Of a stretch of 64,000 nt of DNA, positions 784-63,273 are shown in pieces. Made by a program: the position numbers and the translations under genes. Source of the stretch: Paramacrobiotus metropolitanus (taxonomy: Eukaryota > Tardigrada > Eutardigrada > Parachela > Macrobiotidae); assembly GCF_019649055.1 (NCBI RefSeq), contig NW_026570447.1, forward strand, positions 56,242 to 120,241, read 5' to 3'. Each line of letters starts with the position of its first letter. Position 1 is the stretch's first letter. Below the pieces are notes generated by a model that was given only the letters and a program-made list of their open reading frames with translations, was not told the DNA's origin and did no database searches.

Positions 784-5495
<4,712 letters not shown>

Positions 5496-14673: not shown

Positions 14674-15622
14674 TTATTTGGTAGATGCAGCGCGGATACG
14701 GTCAGCACAGACCTGTTCCCACAAGGCGTGTAACTGCGCCACTACGACATCTTTCTTCGGCTGCAAATTAAAAAGGCAACAATAAAACATTTATATCACA
14801 ACTGATTAAGTCACCGTATTCAATTTTACAAACCACATTTAAGCGAGATAATTTGCAGATTATACGTACAACGCAGCCATAATTATATATGAAAGGTCAC
14901 CTTTCAGTATATATGTGTATTAATATGCTGGATTCAAAAATGATTATTTTCTGAATTTCCTAATGAAAAATTGACGAGTAAAGTACAGTATTATAATTAT
15001 TGGCATTTTATTACGTACAAAAACTTAACTTATAATATAACTTATTACGTACAACACTCTGTAGGTTAACTTACAAATAAATCATTCGCAAAATAAAATA
15101 TTCGTTAACCGGCACCATCATTAAATTTATTAGAAGCAAAATTTGAAAAGAAGAAATAAAGTAATACAGTTTCAAAGTAAAAAAATGGAAATAAAAATAA
15201 ATACACGTATAAAAGCAACAATTACGTACCGGTAAAAGCAGCATCCGGGTGAGGTGATCGCGCAGCAGCGCACACGCCCGGGCCAGCTCGTTCTCCCCGT
15301 TATCCCAGGCGTCGGCCGCGCGGTCCGGTACGTGCATCGTCCCGGAATGGGTCATCCAGGGATCGTGCTCGGCAGCGGACAGGATGTGACCGCTCAGCAC
15401 CATCTCGTCGTTCAACTTCGACCCGAAACCCTCCCCGTTCTGCCGTTTACTCATCGGACTCAATGCCAGCCCCCCGGAGCGGGCGCTGCGCTCCTTCACC
15501 AAGATACGCGTACGCCAGCCCGGCGTAAAGGTCAACTGCGAACGACTGCACTCCGTTAGGAGCAGGAGACACACGACGACACTAGCCGCCAGCGCTTTTA
15601 TCAAAAACTCCGCGGTGGTCAT
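14674..15622 (-). CDS. AKH/RPCH-like neuropeptide precursor (non-canonical processing site)
   Basis: Two exons, 15230-15622 and 14674-14760, give 159 aa, phase 0, with a GTACGT donor and TTTGCAG acceptor. Residues 1-28 form a signal peptide ending TECSRS. Immediately after it comes QLTFTPGW (29-36), which fits the adipokinetic hormone / red-pigment-concentrating hormone octapeptide pattern: N-terminal Gln able to form pyroglutamate, Phe4, Trp8. The rest of the precursor ends with two cysteines, Cys117 and Cys149, like the disulfide-forming associated peptides of the GnRH/AKH/corazonin group. The odd point is that Trp36 is followed by Arg-Thr-Arg with no Gly for C-terminal amidation. A KR site lies at 59-60. 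The expected receptor would be an AKH/GnRH-type GPCR. A chance match in an unrelated secreted protein remains possible. Confidence 0.72.
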
Positions 15623-15635
15623 TGTAATTATGGGA

Positions 15636-15754
15636 AAAGGTCACCGGAAGTTCGGGTCTTATAAAAAGGAAGAGCGAAAAGATGGAATATGGAAACGCTC
15701 TTCTGTTTGAAAATCTCGATGATTTTTATCTGCAGAGTGCTCGCTTTTTATATA
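15636..15754 (-). promoter_or_regulatory. Upstream region of the AKH-like gene: TATA-like box and AAAGGTCA site
   Basis: On the minus strand TATATAAAA lies at 15746-15754, about 125 nt upstream of the ATG, inside a short palindrome (CTCGCTT...AAGCGAG). A weaker TTTATAAG lies near 15660. TGACCTTT (15636-15643) is 14 nt upstream of the ATG. The transcription start is unknown. Confidence 0.35.
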
Positions 15755-29500: not shown

Positions 29501-32115
29501 AATGCTGCTCACCGGCGCCGAAAAATGCCAGCCAGTGTAATGTCGGTGAAAGGGTCGTTAATTCGCTGGCCCGCTGTGAAATGGCGGTTTTATGGTCGGA
29601 CGATTAAACGCCGGCTTGGCGCGCATATTTGGCAGTAAACGGCGGACAAAACAACGAAATTAACTGGAAATAATACTGCGTACTGATATATCCTTGTTTT
29701 CAACAGTTATTTGTAATCTCTTTATATAATTATTTACCATAGTTATTATTTTTTTATAATTATAAAATTTATTTTATATTTTAAATATTCATTTTTTATT
29801 TATCTATGATTCGGGCATTTAATTGGGTGATTTTCTCCCCTAAAATTAATTGAACAATAATTTTAAAAAATCCTTTCTTATGTTGAATAATTTTAAAAAA
29901 ATCTTTTCTTATGTTGAATAATTTTTAAAACTCTTTTCTTATTTTAAATAATTTCTAAAAATCTTTTTTTATTGTGAATAAATACGGTGATTTGTTTGGA
30001 TAGTTGTGCGAGATCCTGGAGCCGATGCAGGAGGTGATGTCGCGGCACAAGGCCTTCCGCGAGATGCCGCCGGCCGACTGCCTGACGCACCTGCTGTACA
30101 GCAAATGGCAGAACGTCACGCAGCCGCAAGGTGAGGGTGGTGGCCCGCGTGACAGCGGTGTGTTTTTTATTTTCATTTTGCGTTTGCGTGCCGTGACCCG
30201 TCGTCAATGTGCTCGTGTACAGGCATGCTCAAAAACCATCCCCTGGCCGCCCAGCATGCGCCGGCCTCGCTGCCTGACTCCAGTAAGCCCTTAACAGTTT
30301 TTTCCCTATTTTTTATGTATATTCTTAATTTTTTATATTTGTCTTTAATTTTTATATTGACATGTTATGCATATATTTTAATTTTTTAATGTCCTATTGG
30401 GTTTATTTTCTGTTTATATACTTACTCATATTTTTATGTATACATTTTTATGTATTCATATATTTTTATGTATATATTTACATTTTTTCCACGTGTGCCT
30501 GTATTTTTATTTAAATATTTTCCTAAATTTGCAGTTTTTTTTAATTAAATTTATTCCATATATTTTTTGTATTTATTATTTTGTTCTAATTTTTGTACTA
30601 ATATTTTTTTTATATATTTTAAATTTTTTATGCAGTTATTGTGTATTGTTTTTTGTATATATTTCTGTACGATGTGGTGACCTTTGAAATGACGCTGGGT
30701 TGCTTGGCAGCGGACGGCGCCAAAGCCAGTAATAAGCGGCGGAAACGCAAGACCTCGGCGTCCTCCAGCACCGGAGGCCGCGCCGGCGCCGGCACCCCCC
30801 TCAGCGCCCAGAACGGGCCCAGCGCCGCGGCCCCCGCCGCCCCCGGGGTGGTGCCCATGCCGCCCTCCAGCAAGAAGAGCAAGGCGGGACAGGCTGCCGC
30901 CGCCGCGGCGGCGGCAGCGGCCGCGGTGGCGCACTGTATGCCCCTCGCGTCGCAGGTCAGTGCAGCACATTAATGCCAGGAATAATTCCGTCAATAATTC
31001 GACTGTTCGATGTACAAGTAATTTCAATTATTGCAGAGTTAATTTCAGTAATTCCAGGGCTAATTTCAAAACGTAATTGGCGTTATTAATTCAAATAATT
31101 TCCAAAAATTAGAATAATTATTTCGGTAATCGGGAATAATACATTTGCATAATTATGTAATCGGGAATAATACATTTGCATTTTCGGAATAATTATTTTG
31201 GTAATCAGGAATAATGCACTTGCATTAGTTAAAATATTCTCAATAATATTACGATAAAAAATAGCAATAACTCCAGTGCAGTGAATAATTATTCAAAATT
31301 AGTAATACTAAAATTTTGACAAAATAGTACAAATAATTGTAATAATTAACTACGAGTAGGAAATAATTTTAATAATCTGAAATTTGAAGAATCATCCGAA
31401 TTGTAAAGAATAATATTGTCAACTTCGGATTAAGTCATTTAAAATAAATTCCGGTAACTAGTACCAAAAAAAATGTTTAGTTAGATTAAGCAGTTATAAT
31501 TCTGCAGTAATTATGTACTACTAATCTCAGTTAATAGTCATAATAATTCCAGTAATTCCATTTCCGGTAGATTTTATTCCGGTAGATTTTATATTTTTTT
31601 TTTTGCGGTTAATCGACGGAAAAATTTAAAATAATTTTTTTAATAACCGTTTTTATTAAGAATAATAATAATGATTATTAATAATTTTTTCCTCGTTAAC
31701 CGGCGCATTTTTTCCGTCGCAGGACGTGATGATCGTCGGGGAGCCGACACTGATGGGCGGGGATTTCGGGGACGAGGACGAGCGGCTGATCTCGCGTCTA
31801 GAGAACAACCAGTACGACCCGGCGCTGGCCGCCCAACTGGGCCCGCCCCCGCCGCCCCTCCCGGGGATCCGGGCGCGCAGCAGCAGCCAGGAGGAAGGGG
31901 GCCTGCCGCCCCCCGCGGGGCCGGGGCCCCAACGCACCCCCTCCACCATCCAGCACACCTCCGACGCCGCCCACTTCACGGCGCCGTCGCCGCGCGGCCG
32001 CCCGCCCAGCGCGGGGGCGTGGCCGGGAGGGGCGGGGTCAGGGGCCCCGCCCAACCGCCCCAGTTCCACGGCCTCCAGCGGCAACGGCAGCGAGAAGCGC
32101 TCGCCCAATCATTAA
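20521..32115 (+). CDS. LDB1: LIM domain-binding protein (LDB1/CLIM/Chip homologue)
   Basis: Nine exons: 20521-20988, 22099-22219, 27569-27744, 27813-27848, 28488-28694, 30004-30130, 30223-30282, 30711-30955, 31723-32115 (1833 nt, 610 aa, phases consistent). The protein is a nuclear co-regulator. It self-associates through a conserved N-terminal dimerisation domain and bridges LIM-homeodomain, LMO and SSBP-type partners. Family landmarks: NIWWDQFASEFFEDDA, IGRSIIPRFFRTFF, WIFSIRAHMELI, LCEILEPMQEVMSRHK, a basic KRRKRK nuclear localisation signal (about 407-412), and the LIM-interaction domain DVMIVGEPTLMGGDFGDEDE at 481-500. Unlike vertebrate LDB1 it has a long Pro/Gly-rich N-terminal extension and an Ala-rich run before the LID. 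The start is uncertain: ATG 20521 is the first in the conserved frame, but protein-like codons continue upstream to about 20460 in the same frame, and an MTDDHPPPP reading (20393) lies in another frame. An indel in the CCGCC-rich tract would unite them. Confidence 0.95.
22330..22780. repeat. Diverged tandem repeat in LDB1 intron 2
   Basis: Segments around 22345, 22475 and 22720 share TTTATCG(T/C)TTTTCGA(G/A)AAT and, in the first two, CGG(T/C)GA(C/A)GTGACCGCTTA. Spacing is about 130 bp for the first pair. The array is degenerate and AT-rich. Confidence 0.5.
23170..23450. repeat. ~80-bp tandem repeat, three units, in LDB1 intron 2
   Basis: CTCGGTTTATTTTTTAATA (or CTTCGG...) occurs near 23195, 23275 and 23357. 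Each is followed by TTCTCCTATTTG(C/T/G)T(A/G)ATGTTTGA. Confidence 0.8.
23750..25330. other. GC-rich islands within LDB1 intron 2
   Basis: Two islands (about 23765-24110 and 24870-25330) break the AT-rich intron. The second gives a 137-codon plus-strand ORF, but it starts with GTG, is preceded in frame by a stop, and matches no family. The islands may be regulatory sequence or an unrecognised nested exon. I see nothing decisive. Confidence 0.3.
25961..26432. mobile_element. MITE with ~100-bp inverted repeats and TTAA flanks (piggyBac-like)
   Basis: Left end TTAA|GGGATTAGGCCC and right end GGGCCGAGTCCC|TTAA are inverted. Further in, ACTTTCGCTGTCGCGCACTC and AAACACTTTTTTGCATTGCT are repeated inverted at about 26009-26053 and 26341-26385, nearly exact. 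The total of 472 bp has no coding capacity. TTAA target duplications point to the piggyBac superfamily, but no transposase is present to confirm it. Related copies lie near 12.0-12.5 kb and 13.5 kb. Confidence 0.8.
28686..29460 (+). repeat. 163-bp tandem array at the start of LDB1 intron 5, copying the exon's donor site
   Basis: GCATTTTATACAGTTGTGCT occurs at 28775, 28937, 29100 and 29263 (periods 162, 163, 163), with a degraded fifth copy at about 29416. The unit starts at the exon/intron junction: the true donor context CAGGGTCAGT (28692) is repeated exactly near 28853 and 29341 and as CAGACTCAGT in the other units. Confidence 0.92.
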
Positions 32116-38832: not shown

Positions 38833-40194
38833 ATGAAGACCAGTTATTATTCCCTCGCGCCACAATCCATCGTGCTGGTGTTGTGGGCGTGGCTGCTATC
38901 CCCGGAGCGCCGGTATGCCTGTCCGACGAGTGTGCAGCGCGAATGCGCCGATCCCGGATGCCAGTACACCATCACGCAACGTACGACCGATTTGTTGTTT
39001 TCTTAATGTTGCAAATTTCTTATGTGTGGAGCGGCGCGCTCGCGCTTGCACCGTTTATTAATCCGATGACCGTGAAGCCTAGATTTACTTTTTACTAGGC
39101 AACCGCCATCAAATTGACGTTAAGCGCAAACGCGGGCACACCATTTTACAGTTAAAATTTAAACATTAAAAAAACAACCAAATTCTTTATTCTTTCTAGA
39201 ATAAAAAGGTACCGTACGGTCCGTACTTGACACCGTTGTAGCATTTCCCTTCATGACAGCCAAACTAAAACGTTGCTTAAGAAAAGCAGTAGACCGCGTT
39301 TGTCCAGTCGGTTATCATTTAGTGAACTATTGATCATCTGTGCAGACTCCGTAAATAAATTGTAGTCGAGCAGCTCGTCCACGAGGCGACACGCAATTCC
39401 CCGCCGACACCCATTCGCCTGCCGTTTGACCGCGTCCCGCCCATCGAGCGGCTGACCGTGGAACGGCAAATCGTGCGTATTGAATCGGGTCAGCAGGCCC
39501 TTTTCGACTGCCCGCTGTACAACATCCCGGTTACGACATGCAGCACGACGTGCACTCCCTGCGCCCCATCCCGCACATGCCCGGTTTGATGATGGCCACC
39601 ATGTCGCTCTCCGTCCGCTACTTCCCCTGGAGCGCCACCGGCAGTCTGGTTGAGTGCGCGCAGGCGTGTGGTCGCCTGCAGGAGACGCCCACCACGCTGC
39701 GCGACAACTTCTGCACCTATAGCTACCAGATATTCCAGTTGGTGGTGCTGCCGACGGCCGGCCAGCTGTTTATCCACCCGCTGGCCAACGCCACGGTCCA
39801 GCGCCTCTCTGACGCCAGCTTCGAATGCGCGGCCAACACCTTGCCTAACCAGCCGGTGGCCTTCATCTGGCGCTTCAACGGCCACGTCATCAGCGCCCCG
39901 GCTGATCATCCCCTTTTCGCGCTGGCTCGCACCCGCCTGCTGCGTCGTCAGGAGCAGCCGCGGCTGGCGGCGCAGCGTTTCCCGCTCTTCGGCATCTCTT
40001 CAGCGGAGCAGTTCGTCTTCAGCGTCACCGCCAATATCTCGACCAACACGGCCAGCAGCACGCTGACCATCAGCCAGGTGGATCTCCACACGTCGGCACG
40101 CGTGGAGTGCTGGGTGCGGCCCAACGCCGACGCTGATACGTGGCGCGTGCAGGCTGCTTATCTGCACGTCTACAAAATCACGAGTACCGGGTAG
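38833..40194 (+). pseudogene. Secreted Ig-like protein, copy A, broken by a 97-bp deletion
   Basis: Exon 1 (38833-38980) encodes a signal peptide and a Cys-rich lead (CPTSVQRECADPGC). Exon 2 (39366-40194) encodes the Ig-like part. It is a paralogue of the gene at 51550-52718, with the same exon structure and phase-1 GTACG donor. Relative to that copy, 97 bp are missing between TACAACATC (39518) and GTGCACTCC (39550). This removes the VWYH core of the first Ig fold and shifts the frame, so the entering frame stops soon after. Downstream, the original frame is intact for 218 codons to TAG 40194, including the second Ig-like domain (FECAAN, FIWRFNG, VECWV). The locus is either a recent pseudogene or an assembly collapse. 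A shortened product from ATG 39538 would lack a signal peptide. Confidence 0.75.
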
Positions 40195-51549: not shown

Positions 51550-52718
51550 ATGGACACTACAAACTGTCAGCTTGAGCCACGACTGCCACAATCATGGGCA
51601 TTTCTGCTGTGTGTCAGTGTCTGGCAGTTATCGGCGAGCTGCCGGCGTGCCACTGCCTGTCCGACGATGGTGCAGCGAGAATGCGCAGACCCCGCATGCG
51701 CATACTCCATCATAAAGCGTACGCACACGACAAATCCACTGCATGCACTATGTAAGGCGCACTGTATCAACACCATGTGTTGCATCCCATTGCAGTCCAG
51801 CAACTTGTCCAGGAGGCGGCCCATAATGCCACGACGACCTCCACCATCCGGCTGCCCTTTGACCGCGCTCCGCCCGTCGAACCCCTGACCGTGGAACGCC
51901 AAGTGGTCCGCATTGACGCGGGGGAGCCGGCCGTCTTCCACTGCCCATTGTACAACGTCACCAGCCTGACCCACCTCCCGGACATGGTGTGGTACCACAA
52001 CAGCAAGGTGCTGCGCATGCAACTGACCAATCAAGCGCCCACAGACTTGGCTGGCGCTCCCTACACCATGATGCAAACCGTGCACTCCCTGCGCCCCATC
52101 CCGCACATGCCCGGTTTAACTATGGCCACCATGTCCCTCTCCGTCCGCCACTTCCCTGGAGCGCCACCGGCCAGATCCGGTGCGCGCAGGGCTGCGGTCC
52201 CCTGGACGAGACGCCCACCACGCTACGCGGCCGCTTCTGCACCTACAGCTACCAGATATTCCAGTTAGTGGTGCTGCCGACGGCTGGCGAGCTCTTTATT
52301 CACCGGCTGGCCAACGCCACGGTCCAGCGCTTCTCTGACGCCCGTTTTGAGTGCGCGGCCAACACCTGCCTAACCAGCCGGTGGCCTTTATCTGGCGCTT
52401 CAACGGCCACATCATCAGCGCCCCGACTGACCATCCCCTCTCTGCGCTGGCCCGCAGCCGCCTGCTGCGGCGTCAGGAGCAGCCGCAGCTAGTGGCGCAG
52501 CGTTTCCCGCTCTTCGGGTCTCTTCCGCGGAGCAGTTCGCCTTCAGCGTCACCGCCAATATTTCCACCAACACGGCCAACAGCACGCTGACCATCAGCCA
52601 GGTGGACCTCCACACGTCGGCGCGGGTGGAGTGCTGGGTGCGGCCCAACGCCGACGCCGATACGTGGCGCGTGCAGACCGCCTATCTGCACGTCTCCAGG
52701 GTCACCAGCGCCGCGTAG
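51550..52718 (+). CDS. Secreted two-Ig-domain protein, copy B (three single-base frame breaks)
   Basis: Exon 1 (51550-51718) has a hydrophobic signal (SWAFLLCVSVWQLSASC) and a Cys-rich lead (CPTMVQRECADPAC). Exon 2 (51796-52718) enters in phase 1. The first Ig-like domain has FHCPLYN and DMVWYHNSKVL. The second has FECAANT, FIWRFNGH, LTISQVDLHTSARVECW. No transmembrane segment follows, so the product is secreted. Compared with copy A, one base is missing at each of three places: CCCC to CCC near 52155, CTTGCC to CTGCC near 52368, and GGCATC to GGGTC near 52519. Together they restore the original frame, and the TAG at 52716-52718 is in phase with exon 1. This pattern fits consensus indel errors better than decay, but either is possible. 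The gene is convergent with PLAA, with ends only ~300 bp apart. Confidence 0.75.
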
Positions 52719-53024
52719 AACATACCCGACGTTTATTCTGTTGTGACTGCGTTCAGCAAATAACAGCCAACTCAGAACTGACCCGGAGTCCCGGACCACC
52801 GGTTTATGCGCCACGAAACCGGAACTCCGCAGGTTTTTATTTGATGCCATTTAACCCCGTCATTCCATTTACCAGTTATAACCGCAATTTTACAATATTG
52901 TAGATAATCAGTGGACTGTCGCCGTTTGGAAACAAAATAACCATTTGCCGACGACCGGTGTAGAGAAAACCAGAAAAGCAACATCAACGCTCACAGATAA
53001 TCAATCCCATTTCCCTGGGCGCGT

Positions 53025-56000: not shown

Positions 56001-59000
56001 TTTTCCTTTATTTTTTAAATTTAATTATCGCTGTACGGGAGATTTATATTTAATTAATTTAACTTAAAAATCACAATTACTGTAATTTTGAATTCATACT
56101 TCTATAAATCTACAACAGCATCGACAACTTAACCTAATTTAATTATTACCTAATTTGATTGTTATTATTGAACTCATTTTTCATTTTTTTAATTATTTCC
56201 AATCGGAATTAATTTAGTATTATTATTATTTATTAAAATCTGCAGCAGCAACGCGCGTTTAATCCAAATTACGAGTAATTTCTAATAATTGATTTCACGA
56301 TCAGTTTAATTATTTTTAAAAAATGATTATTTTAAATTATAATAAATAAATTCGTTTAATTTAACGTTTTTATGAATTTGCAGCAACATGACAAATTTAA
56401 TCTGATAAATTTCCGATTAATTAATGCTAGTTAAACGAGGAATAGCCACTTTATAATACTGAAATTAATTTAATTTTTAATTCGACCTAATGGAAGTAAA
56501 TAGTTATTTAATTCCACTATTTAATTAACACTCACGCGTCCGTTGTGGATGGTCTTCTCGGCGGCGGCCTTATCCCCAGCCGACCCGATGACATCGCCCA
56601 CTTTCTGCCACTGCTGCTGGCCGGCGCTCCAGTTGTACACTTCGACGCTGGTGCCGCGCCGGATGATCTTCGTTTGGCCGTCCTTCACGCCCGGCGCCAG
56701 CAGCGCCGTCTCCGTCGGCAGATCCTCGTTCTTGATCCCCTCCAGCACCTCCTTCGAGGCGAACGCCGTCGCCGCCAATTCCTCCTCGTAGTGCTTCGCC
56801 TCGTCGGCGCCGGCGTACCGGTGGGCGTCGCGCGTGAAGATACGAATTTTACTATCACTACAATCAACGACGACAATATTTATTTACGATTATATTTCAT
56901 TTATTTTTATTCTTATTGAAAATACGCATTTTTCCATCAGTGTTTTTTAGGAGGACAAAATTTATTGATTCTCTACCTCGCTTATTTTATTGAGGATGTG
57001 ATTGTTACTCTAAAGCAAAAAATTATAGAGGAAAATATTTATTTATTATTTTTAATAAATTTGTACTGAGCTGAAAATCACGAATTTTCACCGACATTAG
57101 AAAATTATGTAGGAAACTAAACATACTATTTTCATGTATTCTGATTTATTGGAAAACACGCATTTACGAGGGTACCTAATCAAGTAATGTCGTTCGCATA
57201 TAACTTACGAAAAGAAAAATATGAAATCATTTTTAAAAAATAGGGCATTCATAACTGTATCAGTAGGCTGATGGCCGAGTCAATGCCCCCTCTCGGTGGC
57301 AGTCAGCATGAGTCAGCGTGCCATTCACTCGGGTGAAAATTTGATTCATTATTAAAATGGCGCATGACGAAACATGGGTTTCGCTATCATGTACGCAAAT
57401 TTTTTAAAAAACTCAATGCAACCGAATGCCATTCGGAAATGCAATTGCTGTTTGGAGGTCAGTGTCCTTCATTGCGCACAGTGGAGCGATGGTTCTGGCG
57501 GTTCCGTGCGGACAAATTTGATCTCGACGATGATCGGCGATCGGGAAGACCAGTTTCAGCGAGGACTCGGAAAAGATTGCCACCGTTAAGCGCCTGGTTG
57601 AGAAGGATCCCATATATCTATTAGAGATAGTGGACGAAACCGGGATTAACGAGGCCAGTGTGGACTGCATTTTGCGTGTTGATCTGAATTTGCGCAAAGT
57701 AGTGTCGCGTTGGGTACCTCATTTGCTGACTTCTGCCCAGAAGCGTTCGCGTGTGAATTTGGCCAAGTTAATGCTAGAAGATTTATCATCCAAGCGTCAG
57801 TATGAAATCTACACTGAAGATGAAAGTTGGTTTGCATACTACGAACCAAAGCGGAAGCAACAGAATAAAACTTGGATCACCAAAGGAAGCGGAAGACCGA
57901 CAATTGTCAAGCGATCCCGAAGTACCCGGAAAGTTATGTACGCCTTTGTATCGGGCAGGAACGGAATCATTCACAAACGAGCTCTACCTCCTAAAACTAC
58001 AGTGAATTCTGCGTGGTACTGTGAAAATGTACTTGAACCTTTCTTTGAGAAAATGCGAGAAAAACGACCCCAAAGTGGAACGACCCATGTGATTTGGCAT
58101 CACGATAACGCCCGTCCACACACCTCAAAATACACAAAAAATTATTTAGCTGCGTCTGGTATGAAAATTCTCCCGCATCCTGCCTACAGCCCTGATTTGG
58201 CCCCCCACGATTTCAAAATATTCCCCACTTTGAAAGATAAACTTCGCGGAAAAAAGTTTGGAAGTGATGAAGAACTCGAAGGAAATCTTGATAGTGCCAT
58301 CTCTTCTCTGGGTCGCCGTTTTTTTGTTTCGATGTTCGATGAGTGGAGGGATAGATGTAAAAAATGTATTAAGGCCAAGGGAGAGTATTTCGAAAAAATA
58401 AAGTGAATTGTGCGAACCAGTAAATAAATAAAAAATATACGACATGACTTGATTAGGTACCCTCGTACTAACGTATATCGCTGGAAAATTCAGGAGAAAC
58501 GTGATTTAATTCAGTTTTATTTTACTGAATTTCACTATCACTGGAAAATCGGTAATAATATATTAATTATTTTTTAATAATTAAATCTAATTACGGTATT
58601 CATTTATCGTTCATAATCAGTAAATTAACGAGCAGAAACAGCAATCAATAATAAAGTAAAAAAGCCCAAAAAAATGCTCAAAAATTCCCAATAAAAGTAA
58701 ATAAAATTCAGTGGCGTACCTGCCGCCCGCGACGATGTCGCCGTTGCTGAGCGCCGTCACCGCCCAGATGGAGCGCGCCGGCAGGCGGATGGTCTGCAAG
58801 GACTCGGCGTGGCCCAGGTCCCAGACGCGCAGCGAGGCGTCCTCGCTGGCGGTGACGAAGCCGCCGCTGCCGGGCAGCAGCGCGATGGCGTAGATGTAGT
58901 TGGTGTGGCCGAAGTGCGTGTGCAGGCAGACGCCGCTGGACACCTGCCAGTGCCGGATGGAGGCGTCGTTGGCGCAGGATAACAGCTGGTCGGGCCGCGG

Positions 59001-60998: not shown

Positions 60999-61827
60999 CG
61001 TGGAGGAAGGCGAGTTAACGGGGAGAGTAGAAACACGTTCGAACACGTTTCAAACGCGACACGATCAGCGCATCGCCCACTTCACACTCGCTTCTGCTCG
61101 TTGGCGTTGTTGATTTTGATTCGATTAAGTAGAAAAAATGCTGGCGGAAGTTTTTAGAATTTTCGAGTTGGGAATTATTACACGACGGTTTGAAAATCTA
61201 GTGCAAAAATTGTGAAACGGCGTGGAATTTCACGAAGAAACAACGGCTCTCGAATTTCTGTCGTCTCATCGCGGAAATGCTGCTGTCAAGGAGGCGTGGT
61301 TTTCCCGTTCAACCGCACAAGGACGGCAGTTTACTGTACTCTTCTGTTAGCCAATAGCGTTTAACAGCGATTTGACATGCGTTTTTGTTACTGTACGAGT
61401 ACATTATTTTCTCTTAAAATGGAAAATTCGTTCACATTTCCTGAATAAATTTACTCAATAAATTTTATTTTTTAATCGGTAAAACTTGGAATTATGACCG
61501 TATGAAAAAGTAGAGATAATTAAACACACACAAGTCGGAAATAGTATTGGCTGCCGCTTTGGTACGGCAGTCTGCTGCAAAGTGAATTAATTTCCAGTTT
61601 CCAAAAATCAGTCAGTGGAATTTTCTTTGATTTTTGATCTTTTCACCTGTAAATCTGCACTACCATCCCCAGCCCGCGGCTTCCCGGTTCTTTCAACAGT
61701 ACGGGAATTTTCTGTAGTACCTAGCCAGTCTTGTAATACGCGGCAGAAACCCTAGTTCCACGAATTGATCAGCCAAATTCGACGTTGCGACGTCGTGGTA
61801 TCCTGTCGCAGCGCCGCCCGCCCGGCG
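60999..61827. promoter_or_regulatory. Divergent promoter region between PLAA and the aprataxin-like gene
   Basis: Only about 830 bp separate the two start codons, on opposite strands. No clear TATA box is visible near either start. The part next to PLAA (61000-61110) and the part next to the other gene (61660-61830) are more GC-rich than the middle. A shared bidirectional promoter is an inference from spacing. Confidence 0.5.
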
Positions 61828-63273
61828 ATGGAGACGCAAACCCCCGTGATCACCTCCATCAGTCTGCCCCCCGCCCCCGCCTCCCTCTCCGCCTACGACG
61901 CCGGGCCGGGCCGGCGGGTGACCGGACCCCCTCTGGAGACCCTCTGGGAGGTGTCCCCCCAGCAGCGCTGGCGGTTGGGGCTCCTACAATCCGCCCAGGA
62001 CCCCGCGCGCCAACTGTACCTCGATGAATCCATCGTCATCTTGTCCGACTCCATCCCCAAGTCCCGCCATCATTATTTAGTCCTTCCCCTGGAGCCCATC
62101 GACACCGTCCAGGATTTGACGGTGGAACATGTACCGTTGTTGCGGCATATGATCCGGCAGGCGCAGTGCTTTGCGGATGAACATATTCGGCCGAAAACGC
62201 ATTATCCGCTGGTGCTGGGGTTCCATACGATCCCGACGTTTATTCGCCTGCATATGCATATTATTACCGTGGATTTTCAGGGACCGGGTTAGTGCGCTGC
62301 TTGTCGGATTGAATATTAATTTTTTGAGAATTTCCTGGCATAATTAATTCTGTTATTTTTCTATGATTTCTTAAATTTTTTTTTCTTTAATTTTGTATTA
62401 ATTTTTCGTTGATTTATTTTATTACAGTAATTTCACTGTTTTTTGAATTTTTTCCCTTCGCTTTTTTTATTTACCGAACAAACTCTTTTATTTTTCTCTG
62501 ACTTTTTTCAGTTTTTTTAGTTATATTTTATAATATTTAGTTTAATTGCTGTTTTTTTGCGTATTTGTTCGATGATTTATTTGATTTGATTTTCTCGATG
62601 ATTTATTTAATTTATTTTTCAATTTAGTCTCTATTACGTTGAATAGTTTGCTGAGTTTTGCAGTATTTTGTTAGTTATTTTTTAAAATAATTTGTTTAAT
62701 TGCTAGTTTTTTTTTGCGTACTTGTTCTATGATTTTTTTGATTTATTTTTCAATTTAGTCTCCATTATTTGAATGTAGTTTGCTGATTTGTTCCTATTTT
62801 TTTAAGTTATTTTTTTCTAATAATTTGTTTAATTGCTAGTTTTTTTTACGGACTTGTGCGATGATTTATTTAATTTTTTTCTCAGTTTAATCTCTGTTAA
62901 GTTGAATGGTTTGCTGTTTTAAAAATATTACGTTGTAATTTTTTCCCGCATTTGTATAAATTTTTTATTTTTTCTAGGCACGGTTGTGCCGGCCGATTAC
63001 CGCTCCTTCAGCCACAGCGCGCTGTTCATGGAACCGGAGCGTGCCATCGCCATTCTAGAGGCGGAAGGGCAGATCGTGGTGGACAAGGAGCAGGCCAAAC
63101 TGGTGAAGACGGATTTAACGGAGCATCTGCAGTGCGTCTTCTGCCAGCAAGAATTTCCGGCCAACAAGATGGCCGATCTGAAGAAGCATCTCGCCGGCCA
63201 CGAGGCCGACCTGCACGCCGCTGAGAAAGAGGATGCCGATGCCGGCTACGTCTGCCGATTCCAGGCCGATTAA
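61828..63273 (+). CDS. APTX: Aprataxin-like HIT-domain / C2H2 zinc-finger protein
   Basis: Two exons, 61828-62287 and 62978-63273 (251 aa, phase 1; donor G|GTTAGT, acceptor TTTTCTAG). Aprataxin removes 5'-AMP from abortive DNA ligation intermediates in the nucleus. The HIT domain spans about 50-155: LYLDESIVILSDSIPKSRHH, YLVLPLEPIDTVQDL, LGFHTIPTFIRLHMHIITVD. The zinc finger is Cys206, Cys209, His224, His228 (CVFCQQEF...LKKHLAGH), spaced as in aprataxin. No FHA domain precedes the HIT domain, as in short aprataxins. The HIT triad reads Arg140-x-His142-x-His144: the nucleophile position (middle His) is kept but the first His is Arg. AATAAA is at 63510-63515. The start ATG is the first in frame after the divergent promoter. 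Confidence 0.9.

Follow-up and report, generated by a model that had tools for sequence, protein, structure and literature searches.

The QLTFTPGW gene, on the minus strand at positions 14674-15622 of the window (the whole stretch of 64,000 nucleotides of Paramacrobiotus metropolitanus DNA analyzed here), raises the question of whether an adipokinetic hormone (AKH) core that has no amidation glycine behind it belongs to a working hormone gene or to a copy in decay. The window has a GC content of 42.3%, the figure published for the Paramacrobiotus genome assembly being 43.46% (PMC8277472), and is carried by a contig of 120,241 bp, C227. From splice consensus, the gene is predicted to encode a preprohormone of 159 amino acids in two exons. 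Exon 1 (15622-15230) begins with an ATG at 15622, with an in-frame stop 21 bases 5' of it, and continues for 131 open codons to the end CCG, followed by GTACGT. Codons 1-28 (15539-15622) specify a signal-peptide-like leader, MTTAEFLIKALAASVVVCLLLLTECSRS, with a best nine-residue mean of 3.29 on the Kyte-Doolittle hydropathy scale. As the preliminary description had it, in sequence and position alike, the leader is followed directly by the core octapeptide QLTFTPGW (15515-15538), and after its Trp codon, TGG, the codons CGT-ACG-CGT place Arg-Thr-Arg (15514-15506) where the amidation and cleavage site Gly-Lys/Arg-Arg would be expected. An extension, ILVKERSARSGGLALSPMS (15449-15505), which includes an R-S-A-R motif, leads to the first dibasic site, Lys-Arg at residues 59-60 (15443-15448), so that the precursor reads leader, QLTFTPGW, RTRILVKERSARSGGLALSPMS-KR and then a long propeptide.

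The remainder of the exon 1 propeptide (15230-15442) contains the first post-leader cysteine, residue 117. A predicted phase-0 intron of 469 bp (14761-15229; GTACGT...TTTGCAG, 26% GC) separates it from a predicted exon 2, PKKDVVVAQLHALWEQVCADRIRAASTK (14674-14760), comprising 28 residues and a TAA stop, in which residue 149 is the second cysteine. The two cysteines toward the end of the precursor, also part of the preliminary description, thus flank the intron, one per side, and would be expected to form a disulphide. A motif scan located a TATA-like box, TATATAAAAA (15745-15754, minus strand), 130-132 bases upstream of the ATG; the background of this motif on the contig is 1.43 per kb per strand. 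We infer expression, splicing, processing, receptor and role of the gene.

Several other features were recognized in the window, all on the plus strand unless indicated. These include a long Ser/Thr/Gly-rich, mucin-like open frame with repeated ETTTW-like motifs (3912-5495), a LIM interaction domain (PF17916, 49.6 bits; 31675-32115) that probably marks one exon of a gene for a Chip/Ldb-type LIM-domain-binding protein, and a HIT-family exon (61756-62292; DcpS_C PF11969, 85.6 bits; HIT PF01230). Two diverged, coding-like repeat copies (39484-40194 and 51756-52903) lie about 12 kb apart and are roughly 60-96% identical in pieces. A 290-codon open frame with the transposase domains PF01359 and PF13358 (57534-58406), which we take to be mariner-type, adjoins the PFU-domain exon of a PLAA-like gene (56521-56883, minus strand).

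Exon 1 is the sole stop-free frame among the six, and its GC content at the three codon positions (0.60/0.49/0.79) is close to that of a neighbouring AKH gene at 28.8 kb on the same contig (0.63/0.48/0.78). Its codon score, derived from a training set of 1,723 codons from receptor exons, is the highest of the six frames yet just under zero (-0.057 bits per codon), compared with +0.046 for the neighbouring gene and -0.183 for exon 2, so codon choice by itself is no proof of coding. That the gene is real is indicated by third-position GC, the consensus-like splice sites and the TATA-like box.

How often such a core would arise without a gene around it was gauged across the 169.8-Mb genome with a loose AKH-core pattern, which gave 94 matches versus 46 for a reversed control pattern. 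We examined 85 of the 94 with their flanks, the nine left out having a stop in the motif (four), W or C at position 5 (three) or a repeat of an already examined 24-mer (two). A crude leader filter, requiring an in-frame Met that precedes the core by 14-45 residues and a nine-residue stretch of mean hydropathy above 2.2, was passed by five: the QLTFTPGW gene, the AKH-type genes on contig C22 and at 28.8 kb on C227, and one locus each on C26 and C70. The latter two, with the cores QLTFCLIW and QLKFTLRW (a member of a repeated family), were rejected on visual inspection, as the residue at position 5 or the leader did not fit. An AKH-type gene on contig C2 failed the filter because it has no in-frame ATG. 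Other matches comprised a clustered family (C70:173527-232710 and C162:156880) whose motifs include QLKFTLRWTIDG and QIKFTLRWTIEG, which fits the core pattern and is not AKH-like, and, close to the end of a contig, an open frame with ...QLNFSLRW-KKR (C456:212-235), where leader hydropathy (1.29) is too low for an AKH precursor. As the 46 control matches indicate, chance alone often produces the bare core pattern, and this, together with the codon score just under zero, would be the grounds for regarding the QLTFTPGW gene as a chance open reading frame. We consider this extremely improbable, since leader, core, cysteine pair, phase-0 intron, codon-position GC and TATA-like box occur jointly, and since a further AKH gene shares the contig and the strand.

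A search of the genome with the Pfam AKH profile (PF06377, Adipokin_hormo; gathering cut-off 22.9 bits; E up to 10) returned four matches, on C22 (204574; 28.5 bits) and C227 (28798-28854, minus strand; 25.1 bits) above the cut-off, and on C2 (2750181; 21.8 bits) and C30 (14.7 bits) below it. The QLTFTPGW gene was not among them, nor did the profile match the gene when compared with it directly at E up to 10. The preliminary description had proposed looking for a second AKH gene with W-G-K-R. Such genes are those on C22 and C2, which encode QFNFSPNWGKR; the C227 gene, which lies on the same strand as the QLTFTPGW gene at a distance of about 43 kb, encodes QLSFSTGWGHGKR. Glycine and a basic site are thus encoded in all three other AKH-type genes. 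The suggestion that this lineage generally uses a non-amidated AKH is therefore not supported, and the missing glycine is specific to the QLTFTPGW paralogue. A genome search with a short two-peptide query gave no match, the query being too short to be meaningful, and a corazonin pattern had no match in the genome, the pattern being so strict that it is uninformative on the absence of corazonin.

The gene at 28.8 kb on C227 resembles the QLTFTPGW gene in contig, strand, codon-position GC and build, having two coding exons, a phase-0 intron with one post-leader cysteine on each side, a short tail and a TATA-like box at a similar distance, 120 bases upstream of its ATG. It differs in keeping Gly and Lys-Arg, from which a decapeptide amide is predicted, in its shorter propeptide and in scoring above the Pfam cut-off. 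The C22 and C2 genes, as read by eye, likewise have a phase-0 intron ahead of the last cysteine. The C22 gene has a TATA-like box 138 bases upstream of its ATG, while the C2 gene has none within 250 bases upstream. In the latter (2750181-2750264, minus strand) the AKH frame has no in-frame ATG and the open stretch upstream is only 21 codons long; an ATG resembling that of C22 is present in another frame, so that the copy is either affected by an assembly error or damaged.

The two C227 precursors do not align above chance beyond the octapeptide, where 275 of 500 shuffles scored as high; for the whole precursors, including leader and core, the score exceeded all 500 shuffles. Among the 45 open-frame pairs listed out of 63, none points to a recent segmental duplication linking the two regions. 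The propeptide thus behaves like shuffled sequence, and yet the AKH core residues Q1, L2, F4, T5 and W8 are all kept, for which average composition gives a probability of about 1e-6. This suggests that the core stayed under selection once the two precursors had diverged, although it was by its core that the gene came to notice. The shared gene build bears out the view of the locus as a diverged paralogue within what looks like the AKH/GnRH type of precursor.

Whether the glycine is truly missing was addressed at the level of splicing and of sequence errors. The assembly was reportedly built from nanopore reads and polished with Illumina data (PMC8277472), which, together with the disturbed leader frame of the C2 paralogue, lends some substance to the idea that an assembly error or an unrecognized micro-intron hides a W-G-K/R. 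In a splice scan confined to the Trp codon, however, the sole GT or GC donor is a GC, which yields W-G with no AG acceptor up to 10 kb away. Deletions of one to three bases near the Trp that keep QLTFTPGW do not yield W-G either, and those of one or two bases leave a frame with a total length of 41 or 57 codons. Insertions were judged by eye only, and a whole missing glycine codon would be invisible to such scans. The genome also offers no second copy for comparison, as genome-wide searches by DNA (E up to 0.001) and protein (E up to 10) found neither another copy nor another haplotype of the gene. We regard an artefact as very unlikely. The animal itself does not seem to have lost amidation: Gly and the basic site are retained in the other AKH-type genes, and PF01082, a copper-monooxygenase family that includes the amidating enzyme among others, has 15 matches in the genome (best E 2.1e-29), a count in which amidating and other enzymes are not separated.

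In terms of class, true AKHs are described as having Gln or pGlu at position 1, an aliphatic or aromatic residue at position 2, FS, FT or YS at positions 4-5, Trp at position 8, a C terminus of Wamide, WGamide or WGXamide and a mature length of 8-10 residues (PMC5024129). QLTFTPGW has the residues required at positions 1, 2, 4-5 and 8, pyroglutamate formation itself being expected from the leading Gln, whereas its Trp is followed by Arg-Thr-Arg, and the candidate mature extended peptides would span 9 to 30 residues, depending on guessed cleavage sites. Because the amidation hallmark fails, we do not file the gene as a true AKH. At the superfamily level the precursor has a leader immediately before the peptide (judged by hydropathy only), a cysteine pair in its C-terminal part and a predicted coding intron that agrees in phase (0) with the one that most AKH genes are reported to share at a common place (PMC5024129). 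The PF06377 cut-off of 22.9 bits is not reached. Overall, the sequence points to a real-looking, diverged paralogue that belongs to the AKH/GnRH superfamily but lacks the amidation hallmark.

All eight residues of QLTFTPGW are the same as those of Tabat-AKH of a horse fly, pQLTFTPGWamide (PMC9573411), which, in contrast to the product of a gene with Arg after the Trp, is amidated. Since a tardigrade is far from flies, this identity presumably reflects convergence within a narrow sequence space. Closer in kind is nematode NLP-47 (pQMTFTDQWT), an ecdysozoan AKH-type peptide that likewise has no amidation Gly, shares T3-F4-T5 and W8 with QLTFTPGW, and is reported to activate GNRR-1a with an EC50 of 150 nM (PMC3527849, PMC7303124, PMC5024129). 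According to PMC5024129, all known nematode AKH-like peptides but one are without amidation, whereas in the tardigrade genome it is absent in one of the four AKH-type genes found. Vanca-AKH (pQLTFTSSWGGK-OH) provides a butterfly example of a non-amidated, C-terminally extended AKH-type peptide as proposed here; it is described as a form of the amidated Manse-AKH that was processed incompletely and is regarded as inactive, being inactive in Pieris brassicae and active in Vanessa cardui only under certain conditions (PMC7773649).

A fly AKH receptor used as query matched 28 exon-level places in the genome (E up to 1e-8), part of which surely belong to other receptor types. For one of these exons (C22:15702-16106) the best match among solved structures was a GnRH-receptor chain (E 2.9e-21), followed by a vasopressin receptor (4.9e-19). 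The GnRH/AKH-type exons constitute a set of candidate receptors for the QLTFTPGW peptide. The receptor exons resemble AKH, GnRH, corazonin and vasopressin receptors and fall by eye into several groups, suggesting an enlarged receptor set; GnRH/AKH-type exons at 15.7 and 24.1 kb (C22:15702-24301) lie about 180 kb from the AKH precursor at C22:204574, on a contig of 1.4 Mb. A 2018 study of tardigrade neuropeptide precursors by Koziol, which lies outside the literature covered here, reportedly describes duplication of the GnRH and corazonin precursors in other tardigrades; within the literature covered, by title and abstract start, no published account of the QLTFTPGW gene was found.

The explanation that we favour, with somewhat better than even confidence, is that the QLTFTPGW gene is a functional AKH paralogue whose product is extended at the C terminus and not amidated. 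An old duplication of an amidated AKH gene would have given rise to a fourth gene of the AKH/GnRH superfamily, in which the amidation signal was lost and the peptide core kept. The leader would be cleaved before the Gln, which would cyclize to pyroglutamate, and the precursor would be cut at Arg sites, in R-T-R or R-S-A-R, or at the downstream K-R, and trimmed by a carboxypeptidase; without a Gly, the peptide would end as a free acid after trimming. The shortest such product would be pQLTFTPGWRT-OH ([M+H]+ 1189.600) and the longest a 30-mer with the C terminus ...LSPMS-OH. Whichever is made may signal via one of the GnRH/AKH-type receptors of the genome, as nematode NLP-47 does through GNRR-1. 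This explanation is supported by the TATA-like boxes, which three of the four AKH-type genes have at comparable distances from the ATG. Counting against it are the lack of a PF06377 match, the codon score slightly below zero, albeit the best of six frames, the inactivity ascribed to non-amidated Vanca-AKH (PMC7773649), the need for the amide at the mosquito ACP receptor and its importance at some AKH receptors (PMC6838013), and the fact that R-T-R is not a canonical convertase site. This last point would favour a version of the same explanation in which the hormone is the long product, a peptide of 30 residues cut at Lys-Arg 59-60, the first dibasic site after the core, with the AKH core as its N-terminal head; the loss of the glycine would then follow from a shift of the C terminus to another place. 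Such a long hormone appears rather doubtful to us: R-S-A-R in the extension could be cut earlier, and AKH receptors recognize a short peptide ending at or near the Trp.

The main competitor of a functional paralogue is a redundant AKH copy that has recently lost its function, the codons after the Trp having drifted, so that the gene would be decaying or an inactive decoy while the amidated genes carry the role. With amidated paralogues in the same genome, one of them on the same contig, such a relaxation is possible, and the propeptide, not alignable above chance, would be in keeping with it. At the mosquito ACP receptor the amide is described as essential, the free acid not being tolerated and activity thus being abolished, and it matters at some AKH receptors, whereas loss of the blocked AKH C terminus is less critical in some cases (PMC6838013). 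The 159-codon open frame, the consensus-like splice sites, the neighbour-like codon-position GC and the TATA-like box give no sign of decay, however, and the core is unchanged at every AKH-defining position; we judge decay to be a minority prospect. Returning to a functional paralogue, its more specific form, a dedicated non-amidated AKH ligand in tardigrades that has its own GnRH/AKH-type receptor and acts alongside the amidated AKHs, is put forward tentatively, as slightly less probable than its opposite.

Amidation is treated as a hallmark of AKHs, with nematodes as the known exception, and the QLTFTPGW gene bears directly on this view. Three AKH-type genes that keep the amidation signal and one without it, two of them on a single 120-kb contig, form a natural comparison, in which the question is whether one ligand-receptor pair has lost its dependence on the amide or whether loss of the amide is how AKH copies die. 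If a dedicated non-amidated ligand does exist, amide-free AKH signaling would extend from nematodes to panarthropods, and the tolerance of receptors for a free or extended C terminus could be tested within one animal. The gene also has a bearing on AKH-type hormones in tardigrades, in which energy mobilization may matter for survival of desiccation.
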